Assembly: GCF_022374875.2 (NCBI RefSeq)
Contig: NZ_CP092427.2
Span: 5,084,001 to 5,148,000 of the forward strand
Length of the DNA stretch: 64,000 bases
Direction: 5' to 3'
Origin: Mycolicibacterium rufum
Lineage (GTDB): Bacteria > Actinomycetota > Actinomycetes > Mycobacteriales > Mycobacteriaceae
The translations under genes were made by a program, and so were the position numbers. Below are positions 30,829-62,973 of the stretch, in pieces. The notes under the pieces were generated by a model, which was not told the DNA's origin, ran no database searches, and saw nothing but the letters and a program-made list of their open reading frames with translations. The stretch's first letter is position 1, and every line of letters starts with the position of its first letter.

Positions 30829-32820
30829 CTAGAAGCGGCCGCCGCCGCCGCTCATCCCGCCGCCACCACCACCGCCGAAGCCGCCCCCGAAGCCGCCGCC
30901 CCCGAAGCCGCCGCCGCCGAAGCCACCCCGCAACGCGCCGGACAGCACGTTGCCCAGGATGATGCCGCCGATGACGGCGCCCATCTGGCCGCCGCCCCCG
31001 CCGCCGTACGGGCCGCTGTAGTGCCGCTGGGCGGCGACGACGTCGTCGTTCGCCAGCGACTGTGCCTGCGCGGCGAGCATCGCGGCCCCGTTGGCGTGGG
31101 CGATGGCGGCGTTCAGATCCGACGCTCGCGTGTCCTGGGCGGCCTGCAGCTGACGCACCGCCTCCGACAGTCGCGTGCGGGCCTCGGGGCCGATGACGCC
31201 ACGGCGCGTGTCGATGTAGTCCGACACCGCGCGCACCCGCGACTGCGCGGTGAACAGCGCCTGGTCGTAGGTGCGCGTCAGCCGTGCCATGGTCTCCCGC
31301 TCCTGCGCGACGTCGTGCAGCAGGCGGTCCAGTTCGGCGTCGGCCTGCGTCAGCCGGGTGAACGCGCCGAGCGGGTCGGTGCTGCCGGCGCTCTGGGCGT
31401 GGGCGACCGCCTGCACGGCCGCGTCGCGTGCCGCGCTGAGTTGGGTGGCCACCGCGAGACTGCCCTGGGCCAGTTGGGCGCCCGCGGCGCTGATGCCGTT
31501 CTGCGCGTCGGTGATCGCCGCTGGCAGCCCGGCCACCGCCCGGTTGATGTCCGTGGACGCACTGTCCACGGCGTCGAGCATCGTGCGGGCCTGCCCGAGC
31601 GCCGCCTCGGCGGCGTGGATGGCGTCGACCAGGCCGCCCTGGCGATCGGCCGGCCGGGCCACCAGGTCGCGGGCGGTGTCGATGTTCTGCTCGGCGAAGG
31701 TCAGCCGCTGCCGGGCCTCGTCGATGTTGTCGGCCACCGAAACCAGTGCAGTCTCGGCGAATTGCGCCTTCAGCCGGGCCAGCGTCTGCCCGGCCGGGTC
31801 CAGCCGCGCAGTCAGGTCCACCAGCTGCTGGGTCAGCGTGTCGAGCCGGCTCGGCGCGTTGATCACCAGATCCCGCAGCTGGGCGAACGCCTCGCGCTGG
31901 GCCTCGAGTTCCCGGTCGGCCTTCGCGGCGGCGACGACCACGCGGGTCAGCAGGTCGCGCTGCTGGAGCGGGGTCTCGGGCACCGCATCGTCGAGGATGT
32001 GCCGCACATTGAGCGCCTGAGCGAGGGTGGTCTTGGCACCGGAGACCGCCCGGCTGAACGCCGCGGTGTCCTGCTCGCCGAATTCCTCGACGGCCAGCGC
32101 CAATTCGCTCTCGCTGGTGCGCACCGCGTTGTCCACCTCGACCACGATGCGGCGCGAGAGATCGTCGAGCGCATCGAGGGAGACGCCGGCCAGCGCCGCC
32201 GGATCCGACGGGTCGACCCGCTGGGCGGCGGCGATCTCGGCTTCCCGGCGACGGCGCCGTCGGCGGCGCTGCCAGAGCACCAGCACCACGATCGCCAGCG
32301 CGATGACCCCGAGAGCGATCACCAGTCCGAGCCAGCTGCCCGATCCGCTCGTTGTGTTCAGCCCGTTCGCCGCGGCGACGGCTGCGCCGGCCCAGTCGCC
32401 GGTGCGTAACAGCGGTTCGACGTCGTTGGTGCGGACCTTGTCGATGTCGACGCCATCGAGCGCCTGCGTGGGCGCGAGGAACGCATAGGCGCGGTCGACG
32501 GTCGCGACCGCGAGGATCGCGTCCTGGTTGCCGAGATCGCTGCGTTGCCGGGTGGCCTGCGCCCAGGACTGGGCGTCCTGGCCGGAGAAGTCGTCGACGA
32601 AGACCACCCACAACCGCAGGCGGCGGTCGTTGTACAGCCGATCGATCGCCTCCTGCACGTCCGCGATGCCCGCGGCGTCGAGCGCTCCCGCGCGGTCGGT
32701 CAGGTAGGTCGGCAGCCGCAGCGGCGGCTCGGCGGCCGCGCCGGGGGCGAGCAGCACGCTCGCGGTGAGCACCGTGAGCAGCAGGCGGATGAGGTGGGCC
32801 AACCGCGATTTCCTGCGCAT
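30829..32820 (-). CDS. TPM-domain membrane protein (Rv2345-like)
   Basis: A 663-residue protein. It has a signal sequence (LIRLLLTVLTASVLLAPGAAA), then a TPM/YgcG domain beginning PPLRLPTYLTDRAGALDAAGIADVQEAIDRLYNDRRLRLWVVFVDDFSG. A transmembrane helix (LGLVIALGVIALAIVVLVLW) and a basic stop-transfer (QRRRRRRRR) follow. A long coiled-coil-rich cytoplasmic part spans about residues 210-620. The end is a glycine-rich tail (FGGGGFGGGGFGGGFGGGG). TPM domains occur in photosystem repair and in membrane proteins of unknown role. It matches M. tuberculosis Rv2345 by layout. An upstream GTG is an alternative start. In M. tuberculosis, as I recall it, dgt is next door; here three extra genes intervene. 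Confidence 0.88.
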   Translation of the reverse strand: MRRKSRLAHLIRLLLTVLTASVLLAPGAAAEPPLRLPTYLTDRAGALDAAGIADVQEAIDRLYNDRRLRLWVVFVDDFSGQDAQSWAQATRQRSDLGNQDAILAVATVDRAYAFLAPTQALDGVDIDKVRTNDVEPLLRTGDWAGAAVAAANGLNTTSGSGSWLGLVIALGVIALAIVVLVLWQRRRRRRRREAEIAAAQRVDPSDPAALAGVSLDALDDLSRRIVVEVDNAVRTSESELALAVEEFGEQDTAAFSRAVSGAKTTLAQALNVRHILDDAVPETPLQQRDLLTRVVVAAAKADRELEAQREAFAQLRDLVINAPSRLDTLTQQLVDLTARLDPAGQTLARLKAQFAETALVSVADNIDEARQRLTFAEQNIDTARDLVARPADRQGGLVDAIHAAEAALGQARTMLDAVDSASTDINRAVAGLPAAITDAQNGISAAGAQLAQGSLAVATQLSAARDAAVQAVAHAQSAGSTDPLGAFTRLTQADAELDRLLHDVAQERETMARLTRTYDQALFTAQSRVRAVSDYIDTRRGVIGPEARTRLSEAVRQLQAAQDTRASDLNAAIAHANGAAMLAAQAQSLANDDVVAAQRHYSGPYGGGGGGQMGAVIGGIILGNVLSGALRGGFGGGGFGGGGFGGGFGGGGGGGMSGGGGRF

Positions 32821-32939
32821 CACCACAATGTAGTGACCCGGCGGACTGCGCCGGGGCATCGCCTGCACATGACCGGGACGGACGGCGGGCCCCGATGTTA
32901 GATTCGGGCCGGCGCACACGGTCGGCCGGGGAGGTCGAG

Positions 32940-34163
32940 ATGGTCATGCGATCCGCCCGCCTGTCGGGTGATCTCGTTCTCGACAAGTGCCACGCGGGCG
33001 TCCACCGGATGATGCAGCCCGAACAGAACCTCTCGGTGATGCGGGTACAGGCGGGTTTGCGCGAACTCGGCTTCTTCGATGCCGACCTCGACGGGATCTT
33101 CGGTCCACTCACCGGGCAAGCGGTCTCGAACTTCAAGGAGTTCCACGCGCTCTCGCCGACAGACCCGGTGGTCGGCGCCGGTACATCGGGCGCCCTCGAC
33201 GAGGATCTGTTCTTCGACCCGCCCTCGCTCGACCCGGCCTTCGGTGAGGTCGCCGGTTTCGTCGCCCGCCACGTGGTCGAGCCGTTCGTCGGGCTGGTGC
33301 TGTCGCCGCTGATCGACGCGCCGCTGAACTCGCAACGCCATGACACCGGCACCTTCATGCTCGCCGCCCTCAATTCCGGCTTCCTGGTCGGAATCGTCGC
33401 CGCGAGCCGTGCCGGCGATCTGGGTTCGGACGCGCGCATTCCCGCCGACCTGCGCGCCCGCCTTGCCGATCTGGGGCCGGCAGCGGGCCAGACCAACCAG
33501 TTCATCGGTACTGATGGTCGGCTCCATGAGGTGGTGGTCGTCGACGATCTGACCATCCGGGGCAAGCGGGTGCTGGTGCACCACCCTACGGGCCGAAAAC
33601 TGCGGGTGGATCTCCTGGAACTGCTCTGCCACGAACTCGTCCACGCCCGCAACGCGGGCCTGAACTTCGCCCTCACGCCGGCGTTCGACGCCGACACCTT
33701 CCTCGACACCGGCCTGGCTCAGACCCTGTCCGATGCCACCGGCCATCACACCGCACGGGTGTTCAACCAGTTCGTCGAGGAGATGTCGGCCCGCCATGTC
33801 ACCTGGATCATCCAGAGGGAGCGCGCCGGCGATCCGTTCGCGCTCGACTTCCTGCAACCCGAGCGGTTGGCGCAGGCCGCGCATTTCTATTTCGCCGAGA
33901 CCGACCCGGAGTTCATGTTCTCCGACAACGGCTACATGCAGGCGATCCGGGCCCGCGGCCCTGCGGCCGTCTTCGGCCAGATCGCGTTGTGGCTTCGGCA
34001 GGCGTCGAGGATGACGTTCAGCGGCAATCCCACCCGCCAGCAGGCCTCTGCGCGGGTGTTCCGCGACGCCGCGGACTCGGCGGAGCGCACCGCGCTCACC
34101 CCTGGGGCGGCCCCACCTCCGAGCGACGGGCTGTTCCCGCTGCTGCACGACATGGACCCGTGA
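32940..34163 (+). CDS. Peptidoglycan-binding domain/HExxH putative metalloprotease
   Basis: A 407-residue protein of the accessory block. Residues about 30-75 form a PG_binding_1 domain (MRVQAGLRELGFFDADLDGIFGPLTGQAVSNFKEFH). A zinc-protease-like motif HELVH (H231, E232, H235) lies in LLELLCHELVHARNAG. A possible third ligand is in FVEEMSARH (E280/E281), giving a gluzincin-like HExxH-E pattern. There is no signal peptide, so if it acts on the wall it needs an unusual exit route. The ATG is chosen for the strong GGGGAGG site; an upstream in-frame start would add 15 residues. It is divergent from the TPM gene and convergent, ten bases apart, to the giant gene. No named family was recognised as a whole. 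Confidence 0.75.
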   Translation: MVMRSARLSGDLVLDKCHAGVHRMMQPEQNLSVMRVQAGLRELGFFDADLDGIFGPLTGQAVSNFKEFHALSPTDPVVGAGTSGALDEDLFFDPPSLDPAFGEVAGFVARHVVEPFVGLVLSPLIDAPLNSQRHDTGTFMLAALNSGFLVGIVAASRAGDLGSDARIPADLRARLADLGPAAGQTNQFIGTDGRLHEVVVVDDLTIRGKRVLVHHPTGRKLRVDLLELLCHELVHARNAGLNFALTPAFDADTFLDTGLAQTLSDATGHHTARVFNQFVEEMSARHVTWIIQRERAGDPFALDFLQPERLAQAAHFYFAETDPEFMFSDNGYMQAIRARGPAAVFGQIALWLRQASRMTFSGNPTRQQASARVFRDAADSAERTALTPGAAPPPSDGLFPLLHDMDP

Positions 34164-34173
34164 CGGTCGACGC

Positions 34174-37100
34174 TCACAGGCTGAACTCGGTCGCGAACAC
34201 CAGGCGACGACCCGCAGGTTTGGCGGCTGCTTCCCCGAAGCCACCTGGCGGCCTGCGCACCGACGTCTCGGCGGTCGACGCGTCGCTCTCGAACAGTTCG
34301 TATTCGGAGATCACCACCCGCTGCTCATCGCGGTCGCCGGGCGGCAGCGCCACGATCGTTGCACCCCAATGGATGTCCGCGAGATCACTGCCCGAGGCGG
34401 CGAGCCGCTTCGGATCGCCCCACGGCCGCCAGTCCAGATCAGTGCCGCCTTCGGGTCGGACCTGCACCTGCGCGGTGACCTCACGGGACGCGTCGACCTG
34501 CGCGGAGACCGGCGAGCCGAACATGAACTCCTGGCCCAGCCGGTTGTAGCCGGACGGCCCGCGCAGCGACACCAGCAGGGCACGGTCGGTCAGCATCGTG
34601 ACCGCGGCCGTGCGGTCCGGAACCAGCTGGATGAAGCCGGGCCGCACGGCCGCCGAGGCGTGTACCCCGCCGACCGAGTACGGCTGGTAACGCACCAGGG
34701 CCAGATCCACGAACGGCTGGTAGGCGCCGCCGGCATCGAGTTGCAGGTCGCAGTACCACAGGCCGCGGGTGGCGTCGAAATGCACCTCGTGGCCGACCAC
34801 CGTCGCCTTCTCCTGCCGGCCGGGGACATCGATCCCGGTTCCCACCGCGACGCGCAACGGAAACTGGTGTATGTAGGGCCCGCGCGCGGTCGGCTTCGAT
34901 CCCCAGGCGGGATCGCTGCCCCATGTCGACACCTGCGGCCCCGCCGGGCCCAGCAGGCCGTCGACCAACCCCATTGCCGCTGAATCCGTTTCGGCTGCGA
35001 CCGCGTCCAGCATCGCCGTCAGCCGCACGCTGCGTGCCGCGTCGGCCACCACGTCCTCGCTGCGACCTGCACCGCCGAGCATCCCCAGGTGCGAGGCCAG
35101 CTGCGCTTCCTCGACGCCGGCGTCGGCGTCGAACACCGGTGTGCGCGCCTGCTGCCTGTCCGTCGTGCCGCGCACCAGGCGCGCGGCCGGGCCAGCGCCA
35201 CGGTCCCCGCCGTCGACGACCAGCCCCGCGTCGAAGAACCGCTGTGCGGCGAGATCGGCTGCACGCGTGGCGGCTTCGGCGCCCAGAACGCCGGCGTCGA
35301 CATCGGCGAACGAGGTCAGCCAGGGCTGGTTGCGGACCACCACACCGAGGAGTTCGTCCTCTCCGGAGCTGAACCAGGGCCGCGCGAGGTACACGCGCAG
35401 ACCGCCGCCGATCCGGGTGCGGGTGCGGGTGAGGCCGAGGCGTGGCGCCAGGGGGCCGGTGACGCCGATACCGACCCGGTCGTCCCACGTCCAGGTCGGG
35501 ATGACGTAGCCGACCTGCGGCGGGTCGGGCCGGTGCGACGACGGCACCGACAGCCGCAGGGCCGGACCCACGTGGGTGATCAGCTCCTTGTCGGCGGTGA
35601 TGGAGGCCGGGAAGTATTCGCGAAAACGCGTCGTCGCGGTGGCGGTGTAGTGCACCCAGCGGTGCTTGGTGTCGCCGAACTCGTGCCGGATCTCGTGGGT
35701 CGGTGGTCGCCCGGGCGACGGCGCCAGGTTCCTGCTACCGATCCGGCAGCTGTCCTCGGTGTCCCCGGTCAGGAAGTCGGCGACGTGGCTCTGGCCGTGT
35801 CGGACCAGCCAGGACGGCATCGTGACGTCGTCGACGGGCTCGGTCCAGGTGGCGTCGACGTCGAGGCGGCCGGTGCTCTTGGCGTGGGTGGCGATGGTGC
35901 CGGCCAGCCACGCATGCGTGTTGCCCGGATAGCGGAACACGCCGGAGTTGTACACGGCGGGTTCGGCCACCGCGAGTACCGGTGCCGCCAAGGGCTTTTC
36001 GACCGCATGCACCAGATCGAGGGTGACCGACGGGGTCAACATCCAGTGCCTGCCGGAGAGGGCATCGGCCTCCTGGGCGGCCTGTACGGCGGGACGCTCC
36101 AACATCCAGACGCCCATCACCGGCAGCGCATCCTTCGGCAGGATCGAGCTGAGTGCCACCCGAACGTGCTCGGCGGGCGCCAGGAACACGCGCAGCAGTC
36201 GGGCGTCGTCGTCCCAGTGGGGCGCACCGGTGCCCTCCTCGATGCGCAGCAGGATCGGTTGCCGGTCGAACCACTCCCTGGATCCCGGCCAGTCCAGCTC
36301 CCAGGTGCCGGCGACTCCGGGCAGCGTGGTGAACGATGCGGCACTCGCCAGCGGGTCCGGCAGGTAGGGCAGTGTGAGGGTGTCGACGTCGTGCAGCACG
36401 TACTCTCCCTCGCCGAGGCTTCCGGTGGGCGAATCCGCCAGCAGCCCGGACCCGTTCAGCACGACGGGCCGCGGGGGATTCTTGCCGTCGGCGATCACGC
36501 CCGCGTCGGCGGGCGACAGGAACGTCCCCGACGACCGGGAGGCGATGACGAACGCGGCATCCCGCTCGGCCGCCGAGGAGGATTCGTGCACGGCGGCGTC
36601 GAAGAGGCCGTGCAACTCGGCCAATTGTTGAGATCCGTCGGGTGCGGCCAGATGGCGGTCGCTGACGGCGCGGTAGGCCAGATCCTCGCGGTCGTGCTTC
36701 GCCAGAGTGACGATGCGCTCCAGCGCCACGTACTGCGTCGTCGGGATCCCCAGGGTCGACCGAATCACCATGCGTAGCAGCGATTCACCCTCGGTGAAGG
36801 CGCGCCGCGGGATCACTGCGGGCGGTGGCACCGGGTCCCACCGGTAGAACGGGACGAACGGGGTGACGTGTCGCGGGTCGAGGGCCTCGGGGGAGACCGA
36901 GCGGCCGGACATGTCGACCAGGCGGCCCCGCAGGCGATAACGGCGACCGAACCGCAGGGCGGGTAGCGTGCCGCTCGTCGGGCGGAACGTCACCTCCAAG
37001 GGCAACTCGAACCCCTGGGGTTCCGATTCCGGCGGTACGGGCGCATTGACTCCCAGCATGCCGATCGGATTGCCCGGCCGCGGGGCCGACAGACTCCAGC

Positions 37101-38610
37101 CGTCCCAGCCCGCGACCGCCTCGTGCAGGTAGGTCACCGTGGGCTCGGCGGCGTTCTTCGTCGACGACGCCGCCTTGACGTAGCCCTCGTCCGGTCCGAT
37201 CGGCGTCGGTACCGGCAGCGGCTCCCGTTCGCCGGGCGTTGCGGTGCGCAGCGCATAGCTGCCGGTGCGGGCGTGCAACGTGTACCAGGTGTCGGGGGCG
37301 CTCAGTTCGGACACGTCGAAGCGGTAACCCCGGGTGACGTCCTCGGCACTGAGTTCCGGGACCACCCCGGCGATCCGCTCGTCGTCGAGTTTCTTGGCCG
37401 CGTCCCACGTGCCGACGATCTTCTGGGCACGCCGGTTGCGGTACAGGGTCAGGCCTATGCCGCGCAGGGCGGGCAGCGACGACGCATCGGGGGTCATCGA
37501 CGGCGCCACCGTCTCGGTGCCGGGCGTGGCCGTCACGACCTCGGCGGTCTTCGACGCCGTGGCGGCGCTGCCCGCCAGCTTCAGTGCGCCGCCGTCGACG
37601 TCGATCTGCTCGAGGTGGAACAGTCGGTCGGACTCCACTCGCAGCGAGCCGTCGACCAGTTCGCCCTCGTCGCTGCGGGGCCGTGCGATGAAGCGGCGAT
37701 CGAGGATCTCGTAGTCGGTCCACGGGCGGGAGACGTCGGGCCGCGTCCATTCGACCGCTAGGGTGCGCGGCTCGAACCTGATCTGCCCCAGCGGGTTCGG
37801 CAGGTCCTGGGCCAGGAGGAAGTCGACGGCCAGCCCGAGGTGGCGGAGCAGTTGCGGGTAGTCGGCCAGCGCGGAGACGAATCCGTGGAACTCCAGTTGC
37901 GGCCGCCGCGGTGGGTCCGGCACCCGGTCCGGGCCGTCGGGGTCGGCGGCGCCCGGCCGGTCGTAGAAGCGCAGCGCTTCGACGAGGGTCTGCAGCCCCC
38001 CGTTGACCGTGGTCGGCGGATCGAGGGCGGAGCGGTCGACGAACCGTCCCGGCGTTCCGGGCGGGCTGCCGGGCGGCGGTGAAGCGAACGGTGGCAGACC
38101 GACACCGGGATGGGTTGCGGCGCTGGTGATCTCACGACGACGCAGCAGCCGGCCGATCGTGGTGAGGCCGGCCAGCGGTCCTGTGGTGGTCGGCGGGAAC
38201 GCGGTCGGCGCGGCCTCGGCGACCGCTGCGTAGGTGGCCCGGATCAGGGTGGCGACCGCCTGGGACGGGAACGAGGCGACCGTCTGGTCGGACAGGTCCT
38301 GAAACGTCCCGGAGCCGACGGTCACCCGGCCGAACAGGGTGCGCCACAGCTGCGCGTCGGGTCGCGGGGAGGCCGGATCGGGGTGCAGTGCGACGCTTCC
38401 GCTGCCGGAGCTGGTCCGGTAAATCAACGAGAGCTCCATCTGACCGCTGAGCGCTCCCCAGTCGCCGAACGTCGGGCAATCCGACAGCGCGACGGGCGGT
38501 TCGTCGCCGGTGACGTCGATCCTGGCGGTGACGAAGGCCGTCACCCGCAGCCGGCCGGATACGGGGTCCCGGCCGCCGGGCAGCGCGGTCAACAGGCCGT
38601 CTTCGATCAT
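34174..38610 (-). CDS. Giant protein of unknown function, 1,478 residues
   Basis: No family recognised. The protein has no signal peptide and no membrane helix. It starts MIEDGLLTALPGGRDPVSGRLRVTAFVTARIDV and proceeds through several segments that look like separate beta-rich domains: a helical stretch near ADYPQLLRHLGLAVDFLLAQD; a strand-rich middle with RGYRFDVSELSAPDTWYTLHARTG and FGRRYRLRGRLVDMSGRS; and a late part with FRYPGNTHAWLAGTI, GYVIPTWTWDDRVGIGVTGPL and DATRGLWYCDLQLDAGGAYQPFVDLALVRYQP. Tryptophan, aspartate and proline are frequent and cysteine is rare. The ATG has GGAG upstream, 16 bases after the stop of the other giant gene, so both form one operon. Composition is like the host's, so the block is long resident or from a high-GC donor. 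Confidence 0.8.
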   Translation of the reverse strand: MIEDGLLTALPGGRDPVSGRLRVTAFVTARIDVTGDEPPVALSDCPTFGDWGALSGQMELSLIYRTSSGSGSVALHPDPASPRPDAQLWRTLFGRVTVGSGTFQDLSDQTVASFPSQAVATLIRATYAAVAEAAPTAFPPTTTGPLAGLTTIGRLLRRREITSAATHPGVGLPPFASPPPGSPPGTPGRFVDRSALDPPTTVNGGLQTLVEALRFYDRPGAADPDGPDRVPDPPRRPQLEFHGFVSALADYPQLLRHLGLAVDFLLAQDLPNPLGQIRFEPRTLAVEWTRPDVSRPWTDYEILDRRFIARPRSDEGELVDGSLRVESDRLFHLEQIDVDGGALKLAGSAATASKTAEVVTATPGTETVAPSMTPDASSLPALRGIGLTLYRNRRAQKIVGTWDAAKKLDDERIAGVVPELSAEDVTRGYRFDVSELSAPDTWYTLHARTGSYALRTATPGEREPLPVPTPIGPDEGYVKAASSTKNAAEPTVTYLHEAVAGWDGWSLSAPRPGNPIGMLGVNAPVPPESEPQGFELPLEVTFRPTSGTLPALRFGRRYRLRGRLVDMSGRSVSPEALDPRHVTPFVPFYRWDPVPPPAVIPRRAFTEGESLLRMVIRSTLGIPTTQYVALERIVTLAKHDREDLAYRAVSDRHLAAPDGSQQLAELHGLFDAAVHESSSAAERDAAFVIASRSSGTFLSPADAGVIADGKNPPRPVVLNGSGLLADSPTGSLGEGEYVLHDVDTLTLPYLPDPLASAASFTTLPGVAGTWELDWPGSREWFDRQPILLRIEEGTGAPHWDDDARLLRVFLAPAEHVRVALSSILPKDALPVMGVWMLERPAVQAAQEADALSGRHWMLTPSVTLDLVHAVEKPLAAPVLAVAEPAVYNSGVFRYPGNTHAWLAGTIATHAKSTGRLDVDATWTEPVDDVTMPSWLVRHGQSHVADFLTGDTEDSCRIGSRNLAPSPGRPPTHEIRHEFGDTKHRWVHYTATATTRFREYFPASITADKELITHVGPALRLSVPSSHRPDPPQVGYVIPTWTWDDRVGIGVTGPLAPRLGLTRTRTRIGGGLRVYLARPWFSSGEDELLGVVVRNQPWLTSFADVDAGVLGAEAATRAADLAAQRFFDAGLVVDGGDRGAGPAARLVRGTTDRQQARTPVFDADAGVEEAQLASHLGMLGGAGRSEDVVADAARSVRLTAMLDAVAAETDSAAMGLVDGLLGPAGPQVSTWGSDPAWGSKPTARGPYIHQFPLRVAVGTGIDVPGRQEKATVVGHEVHFDATRGLWYCDLQLDAGGAYQPFVDLALVRYQPYSVGGVHASAAVRPGFIQLVPDRTAAVTMLTDRALLVSLRGPSGYNRLGQEFMFGSPVSAQVDASREVTAQVQVRPEGGTDLDWRPWGDPKRLAASGSDLADIHWGATIVALPPGDRDEQRVVISEYELFESDASTAETSVRRPPGGFGEAAAKPAGRRLVFATEFSL

Positions 38611-38626
38611 GTGCTCGACTCCGTCG

Positions 38627-41600
38627 TCAGTTCGCGAAGGCGTCGCAGTAGGCGTCCCACGGCCGCTCGACGCCAGGAGCTGCATCGGGATGTGTACCCA
38701 TGACCTGGGCAAACGTCGGATCACCGACGCTTCCGGAGAATTTCTTCTCCACGGCGATGGACACCGAGAACGACAGCAGGCACACCGACACCTCGACGGA
38801 GATGCTGGCGCGGCCGACGGCCTTCTGGGACGCCGTCTCGTAGCTCAGTTCGAGGTAGATCTCGATCGACGCGGTGATCAGGCCGAGGACGTCGACCTCG
38901 CCGCGGGCCCGGAAGTATCCGGCCAGCAGGGCGCTTGTCGTGCCGTCGGCGGTGCGCAGCCGGAAGTAGATGCCCGCCATCACCGATACCGAACCGCTCG
39001 CGACGCCGAAGTCGAGCTCCACGGCAGCGCCGAACTCGAGCGCGGCTTCGAGTTCGCGGACCTCCTCGGGCGTGATCACGATGCCGAAGAAGCCGCCGCC
39101 GGCGAACAGCGCGATCGAGAGCCGGAACGGACTCTCCCGGCTGCTGAACCCGAAGCGGACGGCGATCGATTCACCGATGAAGGGCACCTCGAACGCCGCG
39201 GAGAGGTTGATGTTGGTCAGCGCGAAGATGCCCATCGCGACATTCGGTATCGGCAGGTCGAACCCGGCGCGGATGCCCGCGGGGCTGACGTCGAGATAGG
39301 GCGGATCGCTGAAACCGTCCATCGGGATGATCGAGCGCAGCGTCTCGACGAACTCCAGGCAGCCGCCGAACTCGATGCCGTCGGTCGGGTCGAACACGAC
39401 GTTGACGTCGGTCTTCATCCCCGGGGCGGCGGAGAACTCCAGCGTGGTGAAGTGCAGTGTGACGAACGGCTTGTCGCCGATGAGCCGCAGCCGGAACGGG
39501 GACAGCGCGCAGGACACCAAGGCGCTCGGCTCGCCCCCCGGTGCGGTCGGCGCCTGCACGTCGACGGCGACGCTGATCCGTCCGGTGCCGCCGCCGTCGG
39601 GCACGAAGATGGAGTCGGCGGTCGGCCAGCGACGCAGTTCGCCCGTCCAATCGAGCCGGCCGCGCATCGTCTCGGGAAGCACCTCGCCGGAGGCTGCCCG
39701 GACCACCTGATCGACGACGGCACTGAGTTGCGCTGCGCCGGAACCGAGTTGGTCACCGATCCGGTCGGCGGTGGCGGCCAGTGCCTCGCGGTCCGCGCGC
39801 AGCGCCGACGGGTCGGTGCTGACCGCCGCGACCACGGTGGCCAGCTGCGTCTGGAGTGCGCCGAGGGCTGCAGCCGCGGCGGCCCTGCGGGTCTCGAGGG
39901 GCGGTGCGCCCGCCGAGGGGATCAGTGCGGCGAGCGCGGTGGCGGTGGCCGCGGCGGCCGTCGCGGTGCCCTGCAGCTGCGCGACGGCGGGCCCGCCCGG
40001 GTTCTGGGTGGCCAGCCGTGCGCAGAGGTCGTGCAGCCGTTCGACATTGGTGGTGAGCACGGCCGCCGGATCGAAGCCCTGCGCCTGGAACCGCGGCAGC
40101 GACGCGGTGTCCAGGCCGCCGACCACGAGTTCGCCCAGGCTGACCAGACCGAACAACTTCGCCGACGACGCGAAGAACTTCGCGATCTCGAACGGTGGTC
40201 CGCTGCCCGGGAACAGCGCCGCGGTCGCCCCGCCGACCGGTCCGAGGGTGCGCGAGAGAGCGGTGACGTCCAGAGACGGGGCGACGAACCCGCCGGACCG
40301 GTCCGACCGGGTGGAGAAGTTCAGCGGGGCTTTGGTGACCAGTTCGAGGAAGATCTCGGCGGGGTTGCCCGAGAACTGCGTTGCGACGTACTGCGCCGGA
40401 TACCTGACCCGCACCGTGGTGTTGGCCCCGGCCAGCACACTCATCGCGGGGATCACGCTGTCGCCGTAAGCAAGTCGTGGCTCCCACCGGGTCTGCGCCT
40501 GGTCGGGGCGTTTACTGAAGATCCCGGCGGGCGCGCCCACCTGGAACGTGATCGCGGCGGTGGCCAGGCTGGTGTCATCGGGCACCGCAGAGGGGGCGAA
40601 CGCCACCATCTGGCCGCGCATGTCGAACGGGGGCGGCTTCGCGTTGAAGGCGTCCGAAGTGGTCTGCACCGTCGCCGGGTTCGCGTTGTGGTCGTATTCG
40701 GCGAAGATCAGCGGGCCGTCGAACTCGACCAGCCGGCCGACCAGGTCGACGCCGGAGATCGTGAACCGCACCGGCTGACCGTCGATCGTCGGGGTGAACA
40801 TGAGCCCCGAGATGCCGGAGCTGAGATCCACCGGCGGATCGAGGTCGGGGGTGGACTCGGTGGTGATGTGCACGGTGGTGAACGGCATGGTTCGGTCGTA
40901 GGTCGGGTCACCGGTGGCCCCGTAACTGCGTATCGGTTCCCGGACCACGATGAACATCCGCTGGAACAGGTGAGCCACACCGTGTTTGACCTTGCGTTGG
41001 GTGATCTTCACCAGCGACGCGCGATGACCGAAGGGAAGCATGAACCCGGCGTAGACGACCTTGACGAAGTCGTCCCGGCCGAGTGCGGCACGGTGGGTCC
41101 ACTCCTCGATGGTGGTGTTGCCGCGGGGAGGGGTGGTGTCGAACGTGGACTGCAGCCAACCCCCCAGGGTGGACAGCATCAATCGGTGTACCTGCACCGA
41201 GGGTGGGACGTAGCGTCCGCCGCCGGACCGGAACAGCCGGAAGTTCGACGACTCGTGCACCAGCATCATCCGGTCGCGGCTGGTGAGCGGGCTCCGCCAG
41301 GACGGCCGGTCCTGCTGCTGGCCGGCCGCCGGGAACTCGGTGCCCGCCGCGTCTCCGGTCGGCGGGTCCTCGCGGAACGGGAACGCGGGGAGTTCGTCGA
41401 AGTCTCTGGCCCACACCGCGCGTACGGTCCGGTCGGCTCGCGGACCCTCGTCGACGCCATGCGGGGTCCGGATACCGAGCCGGGTGTGCCACAGTTCGAC
41501 ACGACCGGTGGAGGACACCGCGGGCGAGGTCGCGTGAGAGAAGCCGCTGTCGCCGTGCGGACTCAGCTGCAGCCGAAAGGGGATCTCGATCGCGGTCTCG

Positions 41601-42463
41601 GTGGCCGATGGCGCCCGGGGTGCCGGCGGGCGCAGGTCCACGATGACCGTCGGTACGGCGCGCCGGGCGCCGATCGCCTCGACGGCTGCCCGGCTCAGCT
41701 CGAATGACCCGACGGCAGCGCTGGCGGCCGTGAGCACCTGGGCGGCCGCCGCGTCGCCGAACCGGACCTGTACCGCCGCCGCGGCTGCCAGGGTCCTGCC
41801 CGCGGTCTGCAGCGTGGCGGAGATCCGGGGGAGCGAGTCGATGCCGAGCGCCCCCCCGATCGGTTCGAGCAGGGCATCGGTGTCGATGACGATGAGCCCG
41901 CCGGCCCGGTCGACGGCGTGCGGGACGACATTGAGCGGCAGCGTCCGCATGGCGGCGAGCAGCCCGGCCGTGGTGAACGGGATTCGCTGGTCGGTGACCG
42001 TGAACACCACCCGGGACCGCGCGGCGATGCGGGAGCGCACCGGAGGCGGTGTCGGCGGCTCGATCATCGCCGAGTCGTCGGGCGAATAGTCGGGATCGTC
42101 TGCGGGCGAATTCGTCGAGCCCGCACCTACGGTGCTGCCCGGGGGTTTGTTCGGAACCGCTATCCCCTCGGTTCGTTCGAAGAACGTTTCCTCGTGCAGG
42201 TGCTGACCGCCGAAATGCGCACACAGGTAGCCGTGCTCGGATCCGTCCGAACGGTGCAGGACCCGTCCACCGCCGCTGTCATCGATGCTGATTCCCACGA
42301 AGGACACCACGACGTCGAGCAGATCCGCGGATCGGAACATCCGCACCCGGGGCAGACTCTCGCGCGGCCCGGTGCCGCCGGGGGCGATGACGGAGTGCTC
42401 CACGCGCAGCTGGTCGTCGTGCGATATCCGGAAGTTCGCCATGTTCAGGCTTTCGCTACCCAC
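38627..42463 (-). CDS. Giant protein of unknown function, about 1,278 residues
   Basis: No family recognised. The N-terminal 100 residues are beta-like (FRISHDDQLRVEHSV, ADLLDVVVSFVGISIDD). A proline-rich linker follows near residue 130, then large mixed domains. A helical Ala-rich stretch runs about 870-960 (ALGALQTQLATVVAAV). The last 300 residues alternate hydrophobic and polar residues in long runs (FRLSIALFAGGGFFGIVIT, ALEFGAAVELDFGVASGSVSVMAGIYFRLR, IEIYLELSYE), as in a large beta-sheet or barrel-like surface. There is no signal peptide. GTG at 42463 is chosen for GGGAG four bases before it; ATG at 42442 is an alternative. It is first in a two-gene operon with the 1,478-residue protein. 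Confidence 0.78.
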   Translation of the reverse strand: MGSESLNMANFRISHDDQLRVEHSVIAPGGTGPRESLPRVRMFRSADLLDVVVSFVGISIDDSGGGRVLHRSDGSEHGYLCAHFGGQHLHEETFFERTEGIAVPNKPPGSTVGAGSTNSPADDPDYSPDDSAMIEPPTPPPVRSRIAARSRVVFTVTDQRIPFTTAGLLAAMRTLPLNVVPHAVDRAGGLIVIDTDALLEPIGGALGIDSLPRISATLQTAGRTLAAAAAVQVRFGDAAAAQVLTAASAAVGSFELSRAAVEAIGARRAVPTVIVDLRPPAPRAPSATETAIEIPFRLQLSPHGDSGFSHATSPAVSSTGRVELWHTRLGIRTPHGVDEGPRADRTVRAVWARDFDELPAFPFREDPPTGDAAGTEFPAAGQQQDRPSWRSPLTSRDRMMLVHESSNFRLFRSGGGRYVPPSVQVHRLMLSTLGGWLQSTFDTTPPRGNTTIEEWTHRAALGRDDFVKVVYAGFMLPFGHRASLVKITQRKVKHGVAHLFQRMFIVVREPIRSYGATGDPTYDRTMPFTTVHITTESTPDLDPPVDLSSGISGLMFTPTIDGQPVRFTISGVDLVGRLVEFDGPLIFAEYDHNANPATVQTTSDAFNAKPPPFDMRGQMVAFAPSAVPDDTSLATAAITFQVGAPAGIFSKRPDQAQTRWEPRLAYGDSVIPAMSVLAGANTTVRVRYPAQYVATQFSGNPAEIFLELVTKAPLNFSTRSDRSGGFVAPSLDVTALSRTLGPVGGATAALFPGSGPPFEIAKFFASSAKLFGLVSLGELVVGGLDTASLPRFQAQGFDPAAVLTTNVERLHDLCARLATQNPGGPAVAQLQGTATAAAATATALAALIPSAGAPPLETRRAAAAAALGALQTQLATVVAAVSTDPSALRADREALAATADRIGDQLGSGAAQLSAVVDQVVRAASGEVLPETMRGRLDWTGELRRWPTADSIFVPDGGGTGRISVAVDVQAPTAPGGEPSALVSCALSPFRLRLIGDKPFVTLHFTTLEFSAAPGMKTDVNVVFDPTDGIEFGGCLEFVETLRSIIPMDGFSDPPYLDVSPAGIRAGFDLPIPNVAMGIFALTNINLSAAFEVPFIGESIAVRFGFSSRESPFRLSIALFAGGGFFGIVITPEEVRELEAALEFGAAVELDFGVASGSVSVMAGIYFRLRTADGTTSALLAGYFRARGEVDVLGLITASIEIYLELSYETASQKAVGRASISVEVSVCLLSFSVSIAVEKKFSGSVGDPTFAQVMGTHPDAAPGVERPWDAYCDAFAN

Positions 42464-42608
42464 GAAGCTCCCTGTCCGTCGGCAATGGACGTCTTCCCTG
42501 TGAATTGTTGTCCCAACGCGCAATGGTGTTCGAGTTTTAGGCTGATCGGCCGGCCCTGACCTCACACGTGCGTCGAGACCCGCCACCGTGCTGGCAGACT
42601 GTGGCTCG

Positions 42609-43895
42609 GTGAACCCACGACAGCAGGACAGCTACGACGCGTCCGACCGCCAGCGCCTGGTGGCCGAGCCGGCGAAGAGCGCCGCCCTGCCCGGGACCGA
42701 CGCCGAGCACCGCTCCGACTTCGCGCGCGACCGCGCCCGCGTGCTGCACTGCGCGGCCCTGCGCCGCCTCGCCGACAAGACCCAGGTGGTGGGCCCGCGC
42801 GAGGGGGAGACGCCGCGGACTCGGCTGACGCACTCGCTGGAGGTCGCCCAGATCGGCCGGGGGATGGCCATCGGGCTCGGTTGCGATCCCGACCTCGTCG
42901 ACCTGGCCGGGCTCGCCCACGACATCGGCCATCCGCCCTACGGGCACAACGGCGAACGCGCCCTCGACGAGATCTCCAAGACGTTCGGCGGTTTCGAGGG
43001 CAACGCGCAGAACTTCCGGATTCTGACCCGGTTGGAGCCCAAAGTGCTTGACGCGCAGGGGCGTAGCGCGGGCCTCAACCTGACGCGCGCGGCCCTGGAC
43101 GCGGTCACCAAGTACCCGTGGCCGCGGGTCGGGGAACGCCGCAAGTTCGGCTTCTACGGCGGCTTCCCGGGTGACGACATGGCGGCGGCGGACTGGGTGC
43201 GCGCGGGTGCGCCCGCCGAGCGGCCCTGCCTGGAGGCCCAGGTGATGGACTGGGCCGACGACGTCGCGTACTCGGTGCACGACGTCGAGGACGGCGTCAT
43301 CTCCGGGCGCATCGACCTTCGGGTGCTCGCCGACGCGGACGCCGCCGCGTCGCTCGGACGCGTCGGCGCGGGCTCGTTCCCGACGTTGACCCCGGAGGAC
43401 CTGATGGCGGCCGCCGAACGGCTCTCCCGGGTGCCGGTGGTGGCGGCCGTCGGGAAGTTCGACGGCACCCTCGCGGCGTCGGTGGCGCTCAAGACCCTCA
43501 CCAGCGAGCTGGTCGGCCGGTTCGCCAACGCGGCGGTCACCGCGACCAGGGCCGCCGCGGGTCCGGGACCGCTGCGCCGCTTCGACGCCGACCTCGAGGT
43601 GCCGACGCTGGTGCGTGCCGAGGTCGCGGTGCTCAAGACTCTTGCGCTGCAGTTCATCATGTCCGACCACCGGCACCTGCAGATCCAGGCCGATCAGCGC
43701 CACCGCGTCCAGGAGGTCGCCCTGGCGCTGTGGGGGCAGGCGCCCGGCAGCCTGGACCCGCAGTTCGCGGCCGAGTTCGCCGCCGCCGACGACGACGGCG
43801 CCCGGCTGCGGGTGGTGGTCGACCAGATCGCCTCCTACACCGAGGGGCGGTTGGAACGAGTGCACGAGGCACGCACCCCTCGGCCTCTAGACTGA
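42609..43895 (+). CDS. dgt: Deoxyguanosinetriphosphate triphosphohydrolase-like protein
   Basis: A 428-residue HD-domain dNTP triphosphohydrolase. The HD metal site is visible as H75 ([16 protein letters not shown]) and H104-D105 ([20 protein letters not shown]), with the last aspartate in [19 protein letters not shown]. It removes triphosphate from dNTPs and shapes the nucleotide pool. The GTG of [11 protein letters not shown] is chosen; no ribosome site is seen, and a CAGACT eight bases upstream could make it leaderless. It immediately precedes dnaG, as in other mycobacteria. The 145 bases before it hold no gene and mark the right edge of the accessory block. Confidence 0.92.
43888..43893 (+). 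promoter_or_regulatory. Putative leaderless -10 element of dnaG
   Basis: TAGACT, then six bases, then the GTG of dnaG. It is embedded in the last codons of dgt, giving dnaG its own promoter within the operon. Confidence 0.55.
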
Positions 43896-58931: not shown

Positions 58932-59005
58932 GGGGCGGTAGCTCAGTCGGTTAGAGCCGTGGACTCATAATCCATTGGTCGCGGGTTCGAGCCCCGCCCG
59001 CCCTA
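58932..59005 (+). tRNA. tRNA-Met (CAT)
   Basis: A cloverleaf with acceptor GGGGCGG pairing to CCGCCCT (one G-T), D-arm GCTC/GAGC, anticodon loop CTCATAA (anticodon CAT), T-arm GGGTTCGAGCCCC and discriminator A. No CCA is encoded. A tRNA-Ile with lysidine-modified CAT cannot be excluded by eye. It marks the border between backbone and the degraded low-GC region. Confidence 0.88.
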
Positions 59006-59015
59006 CTTCAGAGCT

Positions 59016-59275
59016 GTATTGCGTCGGCTACACCAACACCGCCTACCTCTACGAGCGGACCGCCGAATCCGACACCGCCACCCACCCCACACATCTGTCC
59101 GACATTGTGGCGACTCTGGTCACCCAGCGACACGCCGCCGCCGAGCAACGCCGCGCCGCCTATGACCACTAGCGCACCGCGACGGACAAACTTGCCGCTG
59201 CGATGGTCGACGGCCATGCGGGACCAGCCGAACGCAGTCACGACCGCCAACAGAAAGTTGGACTGGGACTGTGAA
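59016..59275 (+). pseudogene. Decayed coding fragment beside the tRNA
   Basis: One frame reads SDIVATLVTQRHAAAEQRRAAYDH, then an in-frame TAG at 59170-59172, then RTATDKLAAAMVDGHAG. Composition on both sides of the stop is protein-like (Ala- and Arg-rich helix), which suggests a nonsense-mutated gene. There is no start codon of its own and no family was recognised. The opposite strand also has a frame with an apolar stretch (GALVVIGGAALLGGGVSLG), so strand is uncertain. Confidence 0.3.
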
Positions 59276-59454
59276 TTGGGGGATCCGCTAGTCACTCAAT
59301 GGTGATGGTTCAAGAGTCGATGGGCGACGCGGTTGCGACCCAACCCGCGCCGCGCAGCAGCTTCACATCCACCCCCATCTAGAACGCCGGCAGCATGTCA
59401 AATCCGTGGTCGTGGGGGACTGCCCCGAGTTCGGTTGACTCGCGGGGTGTGAAT

Positions 59455-59600
59455 TCAAGCCGCGGCGACCGATGAGTCGAGCAGTTCGATCTCTATCGGG
59501 GTGAGTCTGCCGAGGGCGAGTTGCCGGCGGCGTCGGTGATAGGGCTGCTCGCCAGATCCAGCGGCATAGCGGCTCGGTCCGGCTCAGCGACGGGTACAGA
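59455..59600 (-). pseudogene. C-terminal remnant of an IS3-type transposase
   Basis: On the minus strand the frame reads EQPYHRRRRQLALGRLTPIEIELL and ends at TGA (59455-59457). This is the YNxxRxHxxLGxxTPxxxE tail of the integrase core of IS3-family (or related IS481) transposases. The catalytic DDE part is absent upstream, and no inverted repeats were recognised. It is a dead fragment showing past insertion activity at this junction. Confidence 0.7.
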
Positions 59601-59650
59601 TACATAGGGGCGCGACGCGCCGTGATCTGGCTATCTACAAGGGATCGTCT

Positions 59651-60148
59651 CTAGCCGGCAGGCTTAGACCGACGCACATTAAGACAGTTTGCGCAAAGCT
59701 CACGAACTGTTACTTTTTCGGAATCCAGGTCCGCTTTCCGCGCCGCCCAATCCGAGTCCGTGGCATTGAGGATGGCGTCGGCTGATCCCTCCAGAAATAA
59801 CGCGATCCACTTTTTGTCGTCGCTATCGAAGTCACGCAGGGCTTCAGGCACGAATAAGTCGATCTCATCCTCGGCAGCTCCGATATCCACCAGATGCACG
59901 CGCGAAGGATTCGCAATATTGTCGGTTAGGGCCTTGAAGAAGAAGTCTCCCGCGCCAGGCTGACCAGCCCAACTGCAGTGCTTCCTGTACTCGTCGATCG
60001 CAAGTTGCTCGGTGTCAAGCACCACAACTCCCTGCCTTAACGCGTCTTGTAGCGCATTTCCGGCAGCTTCTTCGCAGGCTGGGTCCGCCTGTTCACTCTT
60101 GCCATTGGCGACCTTTAAAACGTTGGTATCAATCACCAATCGAGTCAC
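59651..60148 (-). CDS. PIN-domain nuclease paired with the ATPase
   Basis: A 165-residue protein of PIN-domain type. Acidic residues fall where the fold needs them: D7 in LVIDTNVL, E53 in LAIDEYRKH, D110/D111 in DFDSDDKKWIAL, and D131 in ILNATDSDW. PIN domains are metal-dependent RNases found in VapC toxins and in defence systems. The C-terminal 30 residues add two cysteines (ELCANCLN). The ATG overlaps the ATPase stop as ATGA, so the nuclease is made with the ATPase, and there is no VapB-like antitoxin gene beside it. That argues for control by the ATPase rather than an antitoxin. The pairing is not one I can name. Confidence 0.8.
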   Translation of the reverse strand: MTRLVIDTNVLKVANGKSEQADPACEEAAGNALQDALRQGVVVLDTEQLAIDEYRKHCSWAGQPGAGDFFFKALTDNIANPSRVHLVDIGAAEDEIDLFVPEALRDFDSDDKKWIALFLEGSADAILNATDSDWAARKADLDSEKVTVRELCANCLNVRRSKPAG

Positions 60149-61545
60149 GGGTTGGCCTTGGCCTTCCGCCGCTTCGCAGCATCCAGCATCGCTATGCGGT
60201 CAGCAAGTGGATCACCAAAAAACTCAGCAGGCCAGTTGACGATGTTTCCGAAAAGATCGATCTCCAGCCTTTCCAGGTGGCTACCCTTAGGGGTCTGCTT
60301 CGCGAAATACAACGACACGTCGGATGGCTTTACCCGGAGATTCCGTCCAAATTCCTCTTCAGCGATCCGACGCTGAAGCCTCATCAGAAGATGCTCGCTA
60401 TGGCTCTCGAGAATTATCTGGACATTGCGAGTCAACGCCGTTTCTAAAATAATATCTGCAAGACCTGATTGCACAGCGGGGTGCAAGTGTATTTCGGGCT
60501 GCTCCAGTACCAAAGTATCGCCATCCTGGGCATAAGCCAGCATCACAAGCACTGGGAGTACCTGACTTACTCCGAAGCCTACGTCTGTCAACAAGACCTG
60601 AGGGGCTCCAGATCGCAATCTGACGTTCATTCGATATAGCGTTTGACGTTCGTCTAACATGTCCAGATCAAACGACGAGATAAGGCCAAGTTCGGACAAC
60701 CATGCCCCAATCACCGACTCCATAGGCTGCTTTTTTGTCAAGCGCCGATTGTTGAAGCCTTTCGTCCAACCACGCGAAATCATTTGGTGAGCGTTCCGAG
60801 CAGCGACTAACGCGTTGACCGTGTATTCCCCACGCTTACCCACATCCCTCGGGGCACTACCCGTGATGGAGTATTCACGTTGCGGATCATTGCGAAGTGG
60901 GCCTAGATAGCGGATCGTTTCACAGATTCCCTCGAACTCGAATTCGACGTCGTAGAGCACAGATGCATTCTGGTAATACACTTTTGCCTGCTGCGGAAAC
61001 CCGTAGCATTTCACCGGTTCCGGCAACTGCCACGCCCGTCCCTGACTTCTCTTGAAGTCATACAGGTTAGATTCCAGCTTGTAACGACCTTTTGCGTCAT
61101 CGGACCTGCTCATAAGGAAGCTGTAGTAACCGACGCGATAGGACATTTGTTGCACGTATGGAGCTTTACGGTCACTCCGTATCTCAGTTTCGAACGAAAG
61201 TTCGTTGCTCGATAACAGCACGGATTTTTTTTTCTGAACCTGGGCGGCAAGGTCAATAACATCGACAGGCCTACTTGACTCCCAGTCCAAATGTATGCGT
61301 AAAGGTAATGATTTGTCGTGGTTAAAAACGATGTCTTGGTAAGTTCCTAGATCAACAATTCCATTCAGCGCCAACGTTTGGTTCCGATCGGAGTCCTCCA
61401 CCGTCTGCCGAAGCATCAGTAGGCTCTGGAGAATACTGGTCTTTCCAGACGAGTTTGTGCCAAAGAATGCCGTAACTGGCGAGAGCTTAATGTCATTTGT
61501 ATCGCGCCAAGTCTTGAAATTCTGAAGCCGTAGTCCGGTCAGCAT
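60145..61545 (-). CDS. SMC/OLD-like AAA ATPase with DUF3696-type C-terminus
   Basis: A 466-residue ABC-type ATPase of the RecF/OLD group. Walker A is GTNSSGKTS at residues 29-37 after the family start LRLQNFKTWRD. The ABC signature region reads LLTDVGFGVSQVLPVLV. Walker B is LVLEQPEIHLHP, and the H-loop is ILESHSEHLLMRLQRRI. The C-terminal DVSLYFAKQTPKGSHLERLEIDLFGNIVNWPAEFFGD matches DUF3696 proteins. The insert between Walker A and signature is about 270 residues, in place of long coiled coils. It is first in an operon with the PIN nuclease. AT-rich codons mark it as foreign. Related ATPase-effector pairs (PARIS, Septu, Gabija) act against phages. Confidence 0.85.
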   Translation of the reverse strand: MLTGLRLQNFKTWRDTNDIKLSPVTAFFGTNSSGKTSILQSLLMLRQTVEDSDRNQTLALNGIVDLGTYQDIVFNHDKSLPLRIHLDWESSRPVDVIDLAAQVQKKKSVLLSSNELSFETEIRSDRKAPYVQQMSYRVGYYSFLMSRSDDAKGRYKLESNLYDFKRSQGRAWQLPEPVKCYGFPQQAKVYYQNASVLYDVEFEFEGICETIRYLGPLRNDPQREYSITGSAPRDVGKRGEYTVNALVAARNAHQMISRGWTKGFNNRRLTKKQPMESVIGAWLSELGLISSFDLDMLDERQTLYRMNVRLRSGAPQVLLTDVGFGVSQVLPVLVMLAYAQDGDTLVLEQPEIHLHPAVQSGLADIILETALTRNVQIILESHSEHLLMRLQRRIAEEEFGRNLRVKPSDVSLYFAKQTPKGSHLERLEIDLFGNIVNWPAEFFGDPLADRIAMLDAAKRRKAKANP

Positions 61546-61918
61546 GTTGCGCCCTGCCTGCGAGGTGTACGTGAACCTGGTGGATAAACGGAACCCACCT
61601 TACTGGGCGGTCGTCGAATCGGAAGGACGACGCACACTGGCGCCTTGCTATTGGAACGCCCGGTAGCTTTCGCCGACACCAGCAAAAGGCCAGATCGCCA
61701 GCGGAAGGTTCTAGCTGGCCGGGAAGACTGGCTTAATCGCCGAGCGACGCGCGACGTCCCGGTACTGCGCGCGCCGGTGGATCTCCGAAGAACATGGCGC
61801 CGGGGCGATGCGAAAGCCCGGGCGCGGCGCTGATAAGGCTCGACGACCACTGGAGTGGGCTCCACGTTCACTGGCACCTACAAGGTCCTGCCCTGCTCGT
61901 CGCCGACGGGACGAGTGG
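61546..61918. other. Intergenic region upstream of the ATPase, no gene seen
   Basis: There is no credible reading frame on either strand; the short open frames have no start signals and are rich in arginine. It must hold the promoter of the ATPase-PIN operon near 61550-61620, but no clear -10/-35 pair was picked out. Some stretches look like shuffled fragments of host-like DNA. Confidence 0.4.
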
Positions 61919-62086
61919 ATGTCTGCGAGAGAACTCACACACGCCATCGACCGCGCCCGCAAGGACATCTATGGATGAACTCGCGCCGGACACATAAAAC
62001 AGCGTGCCGGCGCTGACGGCATACCCGAATACCTCGTTGTCGACATAGTCGCGTTCATCAACAGCCTCGCGGCAGCGACGGACTAA
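61919..62086 (+). pseudogene. Small gene broken by an in-frame TGA
   Basis: ATG at 61919, preceded by GGGACGAG, opens MSARELTHAIDRARKDIYG. A TGA at 61976 interrupts, and the same frame continues TRAGHIKQRAGADGIPEYLVVDIVAFINSLAAATD to a TAA at 62084. Both parts look coding, and a single base change (TGG to TGA) would explain the break, giving an original protein of 55 residues. The family is unknown. Confidence 0.4.
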
Positions 62087-62311
62087 GACAGTCCGAAATA
62101 GCTAGCGGCAAGAGCGCGGAGTTCGAATCGCTTACCTGCCGCTCCTCGACGACGCCGCCGCAATCAGTGCCTCGAGTAGCGCGACGGCGGCTCCGCCACC
62201 GATGCCCACCCAAATGCCGGCTACGAAAGCACTGCGTGCATTTGGTCCAGCACGTCTCGACGCACTCCCACCGATTAGCCGGAGAATTCGTGGGCCAGTT
62301 CAGTGTCGACA

Positions 62312-62473
62312 ATGAGCGTGGCCAGATCACCCAAAATAGGGCAAACCGTTTACGAGACCAAGTTGCCCGACTTCAAACGCGTTGAGGAGGCGATCCTGTC
62401 TGCCTCAAAGGCGGCACTGAAGACGCCTACTGAATGGGTCGAACCGCCACGACGAAGGATCTTCCAGAAGTAA
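62312..62473 (+). CDS. Possible small protein in the island
   Basis: A 53-codon frame from ATG to TAA: MSVARSPKIGQTVYETKLPDF, then a helical KRVEEAILSASKAALKTP and a basic tail PPRRRIFQK. Its composition is protein-like, but no ribosome-binding site precedes it. The opposite strand in this area also has short frames, including an apolar stretch at about 62132-62250 (AGIWVGIGGGAAVALLEALIAAA) that may be the remnant of a membrane protein. Neither could be matched to a family. Confidence 0.25.
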   Translation: MSVARSPKIGQTVYETKLPDFKRVEEAILSASKAALKTPTEWVEPPRRRIFQK

Positions 62474-62509
62474 CGGACTCGGGGGACGTGCCAGCCCTTC
62501 AGACAACCA

Positions 62510-62960
62510 TCATGTGGCTAGGCCAGCAGGGCGGGGGCGTAGCGCCGTCCAGTACATGCCCTTCGTCGGGTCATAATTGACGACCGCGCTCTTAAGCGCC
62601 TGTAGTGGAGGAACGGTGTCTCCTCGTGAGCAAGTCCCAGGGCCCTTCGCCATCATATTGGTAGACGACGGGCCAAAGCAGGAGGTCTTCAATGTCCTCT
62701 AGGTCCACGTCGGCGATATGTTCACCTGCGCCGATGTCGACGACGATCAAGCTGAGCTCCTCGCCGGTGTCATGGTAGTCAACACCAGGCCAGGCGTGTC
62801 CACGGCTCCGGCCCGGTCGCCCACTTCGCGCGGCCCCTCACCGGACGCCCAGTACCGGTTGAGCACAGCGGACGCGCCCGACGCCCCAGCCAGCGTCTAC
62901 TCCTGCAGCCATTGCTCAACTCCCGGCGCGGCGTACGATTCAACGACCGACGACCCGGAT
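62510..62960 (-). pseudogene. Frameshifted remnant of an unknown gene
   Basis: On the minus strand, pieces of protein-like sequence lie in successive frames: YAAPGVEQWLQE, then NRYWASGEGPREVGDRAGAVDTPG, then GVDYHDTGEELSLIVVDIGAGEHIADVDLEDIEDLLLWPVVYQYDGEGPWDLLTRR, then ALKSAVVNYDPTKGMYWTALRPRP. The junctions need at least two frameshifts and one stop. The acidic middle part is the best preserved. No family was recognised. The 500-bp stretch is best read as one decayed gene. Confidence 0.45.
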
Positions 62961-62973
62961 CTCGTTAGTTAAT

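Follow-up and report, generated by a model that had tools for sequence, protein, structure and literature searches.

An ordered pair of giant proteins, B and A, in Mycolicibacterium rufum and its relatives: candidate subunits of an envelope complex

The B-A locus

Genes B and A, the subject of this report, lie in a 64,000-nucleotide stretch of Mycolicibacterium rufum DNA (contig NZ_CP092427.2, positions 5,084,001 to 5,148,000; the window) and encode undescribed giant proteins that are absent from the family libraries searched here. B (38627-42463, minus strand, GTG start, 1278 amino acids, aa) is upstream of A (34174-38610, minus strand, ATG start, 1478 aa), and convergent with A runs a third gene, M (32940-34163, plus strand, ATG start, 407 aa), which combines a peptidoglycan (PG)-binding domain with a zincin-like part. 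The three occupy the interval (32920-42587) between the TPM gene on the left (30829-32919, minus strand) and dgt on the right (42588-43895, plus strand). Each reading frame ends in a single terminal stop, and the intergenic gaps measure 20 b (TPM-M), 10 b (M-A), 16 b (A-B) and 124 b (B-dgt). An earlier note on this DNA had described a 9.5-kb block between the TPM gene and dgt, with giants of about 1,278 and 1,478 residues; the block and both sizes are confirmed here.

We detected dgt in 11 of 12 same-genus relatives, the genome of the window not counted. Judged by tblastn ends, the TPM gene overlaps dgt or is separated from it by no more than about 160 b in 8 of these 11 and is about 1.2 kb away in one; in the other two, the short flank read did not show it. 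As the two genes adjoin in most relatives, the M-A-B block is an insertion between them. The order TPM-M-A-B recurs in G538, the closest relative fetched, with identities of 74% for M, 73% for A and 76% for B, the available stretch stopping inside B. In comparison with this genome, M, A and B give dN/dS values of 0.19-0.20, that of B from 1004 codons, and the TPM gene gives 0.27. The genome of the window holds one copy of A.

B and A are inherited as a two-gene unit

Homologue searches, each scoring about 8000 candidates, and with the B and A queries extended beyond their likely starts by 41 and 38 residues, respectively, recovered at E<=1e-3 at least 195 homologues of B (120 listed), at least 63 of A and at least 63 of M, the last two M sequences being weak matches to other PG-binding proteins. 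For gene order, we assembled 92 loci, namely the best 80 of 210 B relatives (species-representative contigs, scanned with a B alignment) and 12 plasmid loci; four were too short downstream of B, and 88 were scored. A follows B on the same strand in 86 of the 88, across several phyla, and in the two exceptions (L114 and L121) a giant open reading frame (ORF) not recognised as A occupies its position. The pairwise distances of A and B correlate at r=0.958 over 60 pairs, a value reached by none of 2000 permutations, although this Mantel result, uncorrected for relatedness, reports joint inheritance and not interaction. A tree of 70 B proteins, midpoint-rooted for drawing, has two large groups with Actinomycetota and Pseudomonadota in each, and the B of the window adjoins one Microbacteriaceae and one Actinomycetales sequence. 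Within the genus, B is present in just 5 of 198 sampled genomes, and M in 2; among plasmid records, 19 carry B and 15 an A relative.

To survey the surroundings, we took up to two neighbours per side, of 100-900 aa, from loci with called B and A only, and hand-picked 96 from the resulting 211. No Pfam family occurs in more than three of them, with 134 families matched in total; the selection omitted, among others, genes scanned singly, such as the Williamsia hydrolase and tyrosinase, and most companions of the Bacteroidota type, and hence leans to ordinary neighbours. A fixed third gene is rejected, given B-A order in 86 loci and neighbours that appear random. The conserved order, the joint inheritance, the patchy presence in the genus and the lack of a shared neighbour therefore define B-A as a self-contained, patchily distributed module of two genes: an ordered pair, inherited together, with no fixed third partner. 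The three-gene system of the earlier note does not stand in this light, M being rare in the genus and found on its own in one genome (G843). Joint action of B and A is, by our estimate, nearly certain.

Several loci show further features in their own right. In L010, L011, L012 and L014 (Chlorobiota, Bacteroidota and Balneolota), two recurring genes flank B-A, one for a protein of about 330-370 aa that looks secreted and the other for a protein of about 650-710 aa with the look, by eye, of an outer-membrane barrel; the members scanned had no match above the Pfam or NCBIfam cut-off. On an Agrobacterium vitis plasmid (L163:1246-30504), a B relative of 3043 aa whose start is Tat-like (Tat, twin-arginine translocation) is accompanied by an A relative in two ORFs and then by dpd genes. 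On the Rhizobium plasmid of L114, the giant ORF in the A position is succeeded by a gene for a 191-aa protein (L114:20786-21361) without a Pfam match, whose THGC stretch, by eye, recalls L,D-transpeptidase-type enzymes.

Families and predicted folds

Searches of Pfam, PHROGs and NCBIfam (E up to 1) and of PADLOC (E up to 0.1) returned nothing for either giant, which bears out the earlier statement that they belong to no recognisable family. By sequence, the PDB yielded nothing credible, the sole match being one for B at E 0.034; the Pfam scan recognised no catalytic domain in either protein, and a listing-level search of the open literature found no publication on the pair. A role as a defence system is rejected for want of a PADLOC match.

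The beta-rich character proposed earlier fits the models of homologues. In a model of an A homologue, the last 1200 aa form a string of FN3/immunoglobulin (Ig)-like beta sandwiches. In a model of the B relative P0114, the C-terminus forms an amphipathic sheet that is porin-like by fold comparison; for both B and A the comparison covered the listed folds only, others being possible. Transferred from P0114 to the B of the window, this predicted amphipathic beta-meander spans residues 1050-1261 or so (38681-39316, minus strand). The hydrophobic side of its strands is on average the more conserved (mean entropy 0.86 versus 1.35), as is true of 5 of 9 strands and not of 4. Outer-membrane beta-barrels such as OmpG, CymA and FhaC differ from B in that B is far larger, showed no sequence relation to them in the Pfam and PDB searches, has no convincing Sec signal, and occurs in hosts that include monoderms.

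A different function for the sheet is suggested by Foldseek, whose best matches are MTP and PelB (E about 3e-4), followed by ApoB (2e-3), as would befit a carrier of lipids or hydrophobic polymers in which the sheet of B forms a lipid-lined trough. The TM-scores of these matches are only 0.05-0.22. A weak profile similarity between the B C-terminus and DUF6603 (PF20248), a family likewise made up of giant beta-rich proteins without known function, points the same way; in hhalign, with 10 of 20 sequences used, it scored 39.2 at a probability of 26-35%. Reversed controls scored 19.0 and 21.7, and the best of 100 block shuffles reached 39.1, so the score of B is no better; moreover, B has no Pfam match to the family at E up to 1. 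Homology of B to DUF6603 is thus suggestive only, and since DUF6603 itself has no known function, it would lend the carrier idea little; we regard such a carrier as doubtful. A match of A to DUF6603 at 98% over 14 columns is spurious, given that separate segments of A reached scores of only 16-17. A member of DUF6603 also occurs in G295, a Mycobacteriaceae genome (L137:1-16641), near dnaG and together with two giants lacking Pfam matches and a PG-binding gene that is M23-like by eye. The layout parallels that of B, A and M and lies near the same genes, although we recognised no relative of A or B there.

Export signals and a proposed envelope complex

The M, A and B proteins of the window have no Tat- or Sec-like start on inspection of their N-termini by eye, in agreement with the earlier note, which had seen no signal peptide on any of them. 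Among B homologues at large, a Tat pattern is present in 10 of 189 N-termini (some sequences being truncated), as against 4 of 3199 windows taken from the interior of A and B, and none of 128 A proteins has it; a stricter pattern retains 7 of the 189 and none of 129 A proteins. The hosts of Tat-type B are Chlorobiota, Bacteroidota, Balneolota and one named deltaproteobacterium, to which four metagenome proteins are added. By eye, the starts of B in L074 and P0102 are Tat-like too, as are those of 5 of the 8 plasmid B proteins read (L113, L115, L120, L122 and L163). A Sec pattern occurs in 3 of 189 B proteins, none of them convincing by eye, and in none of 129 A proteins. On the Sinorhizobium meliloti plasmid pC, tatA lies 49 b after A, and in Ensifer adhaerens a gene for a 45-aa TatA lies 20 b after an A relative. 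A general tie to tatA is rejected, as a pattern scan of the 92 loci returned two matches, of which L120 is real and L081 by eye is not TatA; a TatA-like gene of Rhizobium etli has no recognised giant alongside, and the ones in Sinorhizobium sp. B11, Methylobacterium and Jiella have different genomic contexts. Modules that would contact the wall are fused to a few of the proteins: LysM to four B proteins, in three Williamsia loci (by similarity) and M. agri (by Pfam), and a PG-binding domain to the A relative P0170, with a sub-threshold one in P0174. A PG-binding-like start of the M. agri B, lectin-like in look, was dropped, as Pfam and a control profile do not bear out PG binding.

We read these observations as pointing to a single giant complex, composed of B and A and active outside the cytoplasm, and we put the odds of this at about even (roughly 0.5). 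The best reading of the pair is a complex of two envelope proteins, exported together in some lineages; taken by itself, action of a B-A complex outside the cytoplasm seems rather likely. In diderm lineages with a Tat-type B, A would probably be exported folded together with B, as a Tat hitch-hiker, because B has the twin-arginine signal while A has none. The C-terminal amphipathic sheet of B may then close into a barrel or turn one face to lipid, in contact with a membrane or a hydrophobic ligand, and A may serve as an elongated Ig-like scaffold or binding arm. In a few relatives, LysM on B or the PG-binding domain on A could engage the wall, and in the few mycobacteria in which M accompanies the pair, it could act on wall-associated proteins. 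The large and possibly envelope-acting assembly envisaged in the earlier note is to this extent supported by signs in relatives.

A number of observations weigh against such an envelope complex. The putative signs of extracytoplasmic work belong to some relatives only, and none is on the proteins of the window: 179 of 189 B sequences are without the Tat pattern, the B of the window being among those without a signal, and 3 of the 8 plasmid B proteins (L111, L114 and L121) lack a Tat-like start. A link of tatA to B-A exists in only two loci, and in the Ensifer stretch fetched no B was recognised. A conserved hydrophobic face on the B strands would suit a packed core no less than a surface turned to a membrane, and a high Z-score does not prove homology for B when the fold class is a common one. 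The hosts of B include Streptomyces and Agromyces, which are monoderms and have no outer membrane to receive a porin-like domain. To these come the Mantel result, in the limited sense given above, and the occurrence of M in G843 without B-A within the 20 kb read.

The same modules recall a surface adhesin or matrix protein. In the intimin/invasin inverse autotransporters, LysM, a barrel and Ig-like domains occur together, and all three have counterparts in B-A: a LysM anchor (in the four B proteins) and the barrel-like meander in B, and the Ig string as arms in A, so that B-A could be a split intimin. However, B-A distributes these over two genes and in another domain order, and where a signal exists it is of the Tat and not the Sec type. 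The rarity of fused wall modules, the want of a convincing Sec signal in the 189 B or 129 A proteins and the monoderm hosts further count against an adhesin, which we think improbable. Two-partner secretion (FhaC/FhaB) resembles B-A in that a barrel-like protein is encoded beside a giant partner, and differs from it in that none of 129 A proteins begins in a Sec-like manner and A has no Pfam match, and so no two-partner secretion domain.

Gene M and other genes beside A

The claim of a convergent gene with a PG-binding domain and an HExxH motif proved correct. PG_binding_1 (PF01471) matches M at residues 32-85 (33033-33194, plus strand; Pfam E 4e-7), and HELVH, an instance of HExxH, lies at residues 231-235 (33630-33644, plus strand). 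Of the 61 M relatives aligned, all keep H231, E232, H235, N238 and E281, the last (33780-33782, plus strand) a possible third zinc ligand. With HExxH and a distal glutamate conserved in all 61, M is probably a PG-binding zincin and peptidase.

Its tie to B-A is less firm. Where the surroundings were read, full-length M is convergent with A in three of four genomes (the window, G538 and G030), the fourth being G843. A profile of M alone scores in five loci, one being that of the window; in the others (L048, L051, L063 and L073, 4 of 80) it finds the N-terminal domain only. A PG-binding-like N-terminus also begins the gene after A in Williamsia, Nocardia and G066. The remainder is a tyrosinase domain in two Williamsia, a different HExxH part in Nocardia and G066 and, in W. 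faeni, an unassigned part without HExxH. Three of the five B-bearing genomes of the genus sample (the window, G030 and G066, and not G049 or G166) have a gene with a PG-binding-type start beside A. An earlier profile that united M with the other partners had included those same partner sequences, and a special domain common to all of them is rejected: the M N-terminus profile scores the partners at 16-47 bits versus 7-32 bits for ordinary PG-binding proteins, and W. faeni, at 47 bits, is the only partner not in or near the control range. None of the tyrosinase, W. faeni, G066 and Nocardia partners exceeds the Pfam cut-off for PG-binding (W. faeni, 20.2 bits versus 23). The N-terminal domain of the partners being an ordinary PG-binding domain, we have marked down the idea of exchangeable partners and raised that of M as an unrelated passenger that merely sits beside A. 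That M is absent from nearly all B-A loci and stands alone in G843 speaks for a passenger, as does the PG-binding part of the other partners, which is no closer to that of M than ordinary PG-binding domains are; against it speaks the convergent A-M order in G030, whose B and A share just about 25-36% identity with those of the window. We hold the passenger status of M to be a real, if tentative, possibility.

Enzymes near B-A and the question of antagonism

In a few loci, examined closely for being striking, B-A has enzyme-rich surroundings. A tyrosinase and an S8 peptidase lie near it in Williamsia, an M35 peptidase and a zinc-dependent phospholipase C on a Ruegeria plasmid and a patatin on a Rhizobium plasmid, with a PG-binding gene also among the Rhizobium and Ruegeria plasmid neighbours. 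Divergent from B-A in G066 (L128:362-9504) are genes for a Tle1-like phospholipase, an MBL-fold (metallo-beta-lactamase) protein, a caspase-like protein, a second MBL-fold protein, an unassigned product and an astacin-like protein with hemopexin repeats. Nocardia abscessus has a tandem B-A and an HExxH gene, and about 6 kb from the tandem lies a Tc-type cluster, next to which is an encapsulin-like shell gene (L131:3221-19900).

These enzymes and the Tc-type cluster, together with the patchy spread and plasmid carriage, are what favours a device of antagonism, in which B-A would act by toxin-like delivery or pore formation, and M and the nearby enzymes would be payloads or helpers. Tc toxins are likewise giant multi-subunit proteins. 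Nevertheless, A and B have no TcA, TcB or TcC family match (Pfam, E up to 1), and the TcA family PF18413 is present in just 2 of 29 B-A genomes, once near B-A and once not placed relative to it, and is absent from the genome of the window (G000), on which ground a general tie to Tc toxins is rejected. Further against antagonism, most loci have unremarkable neighbours, neither A nor B contains a recognised catalytic domain, and delivery machinery was not found. No injection-system family is among the 25 commonest neighbour families, the genome of the window itself not having been searched for them. B relatives are absent from IMG/VR (two peptide patterns) and from 50,697 phage records, and a viral structure library gave one match at E<1e-3 with a TM-score below 0.1; an origin from a phage or prophage is rejected on these grounds. 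The injection-like role once suggested has a single Tc-type neighbourhood, that of Nocardia, in its favour, which does not establish it. We judge such a device unlikely, and harm to other cells by B-A unlikely in equal measure.

More elaborately, the envelope complex could be part of a folded-export device: a giant pair assembled beforehand and sent through Tat where a signal is present, with a dedicated TatA in some rhizobia, swappable wall or glycan modules, and exchangeable enzymes shown to a neighbour cell or to the wall of the producer. In Mycobacteriales such enzymes (the zincin, the tyrosinase and another HExxH protein) would often bear a PG-binding domain. We consider this version quite improbable. 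Were the pair exported folded, it would be an unusually large Tat cargo, as estimated from lengths, and would offer a concrete system for the passage of giant folded complexes across envelopes and for the roles of the enzyme neighbours there. Conserved in order over several phyla, missing from the family libraries searched and, where one pair of genomes was measured, under purifying selection, B-A is a blind spot of annotation.

A possible island in the window

Farther along the window, at 58932-64000, the GC content drops from about 0.70 to 0.52-0.61 just after a tRNA-Met gene, which may mark a tRNA-linked island. Two ORFs on its minus strand, at 60145-61545 and 59651-60148, resemble by eye an OLD-type AAA ATPase and a PIN-like nuclease, respectively.
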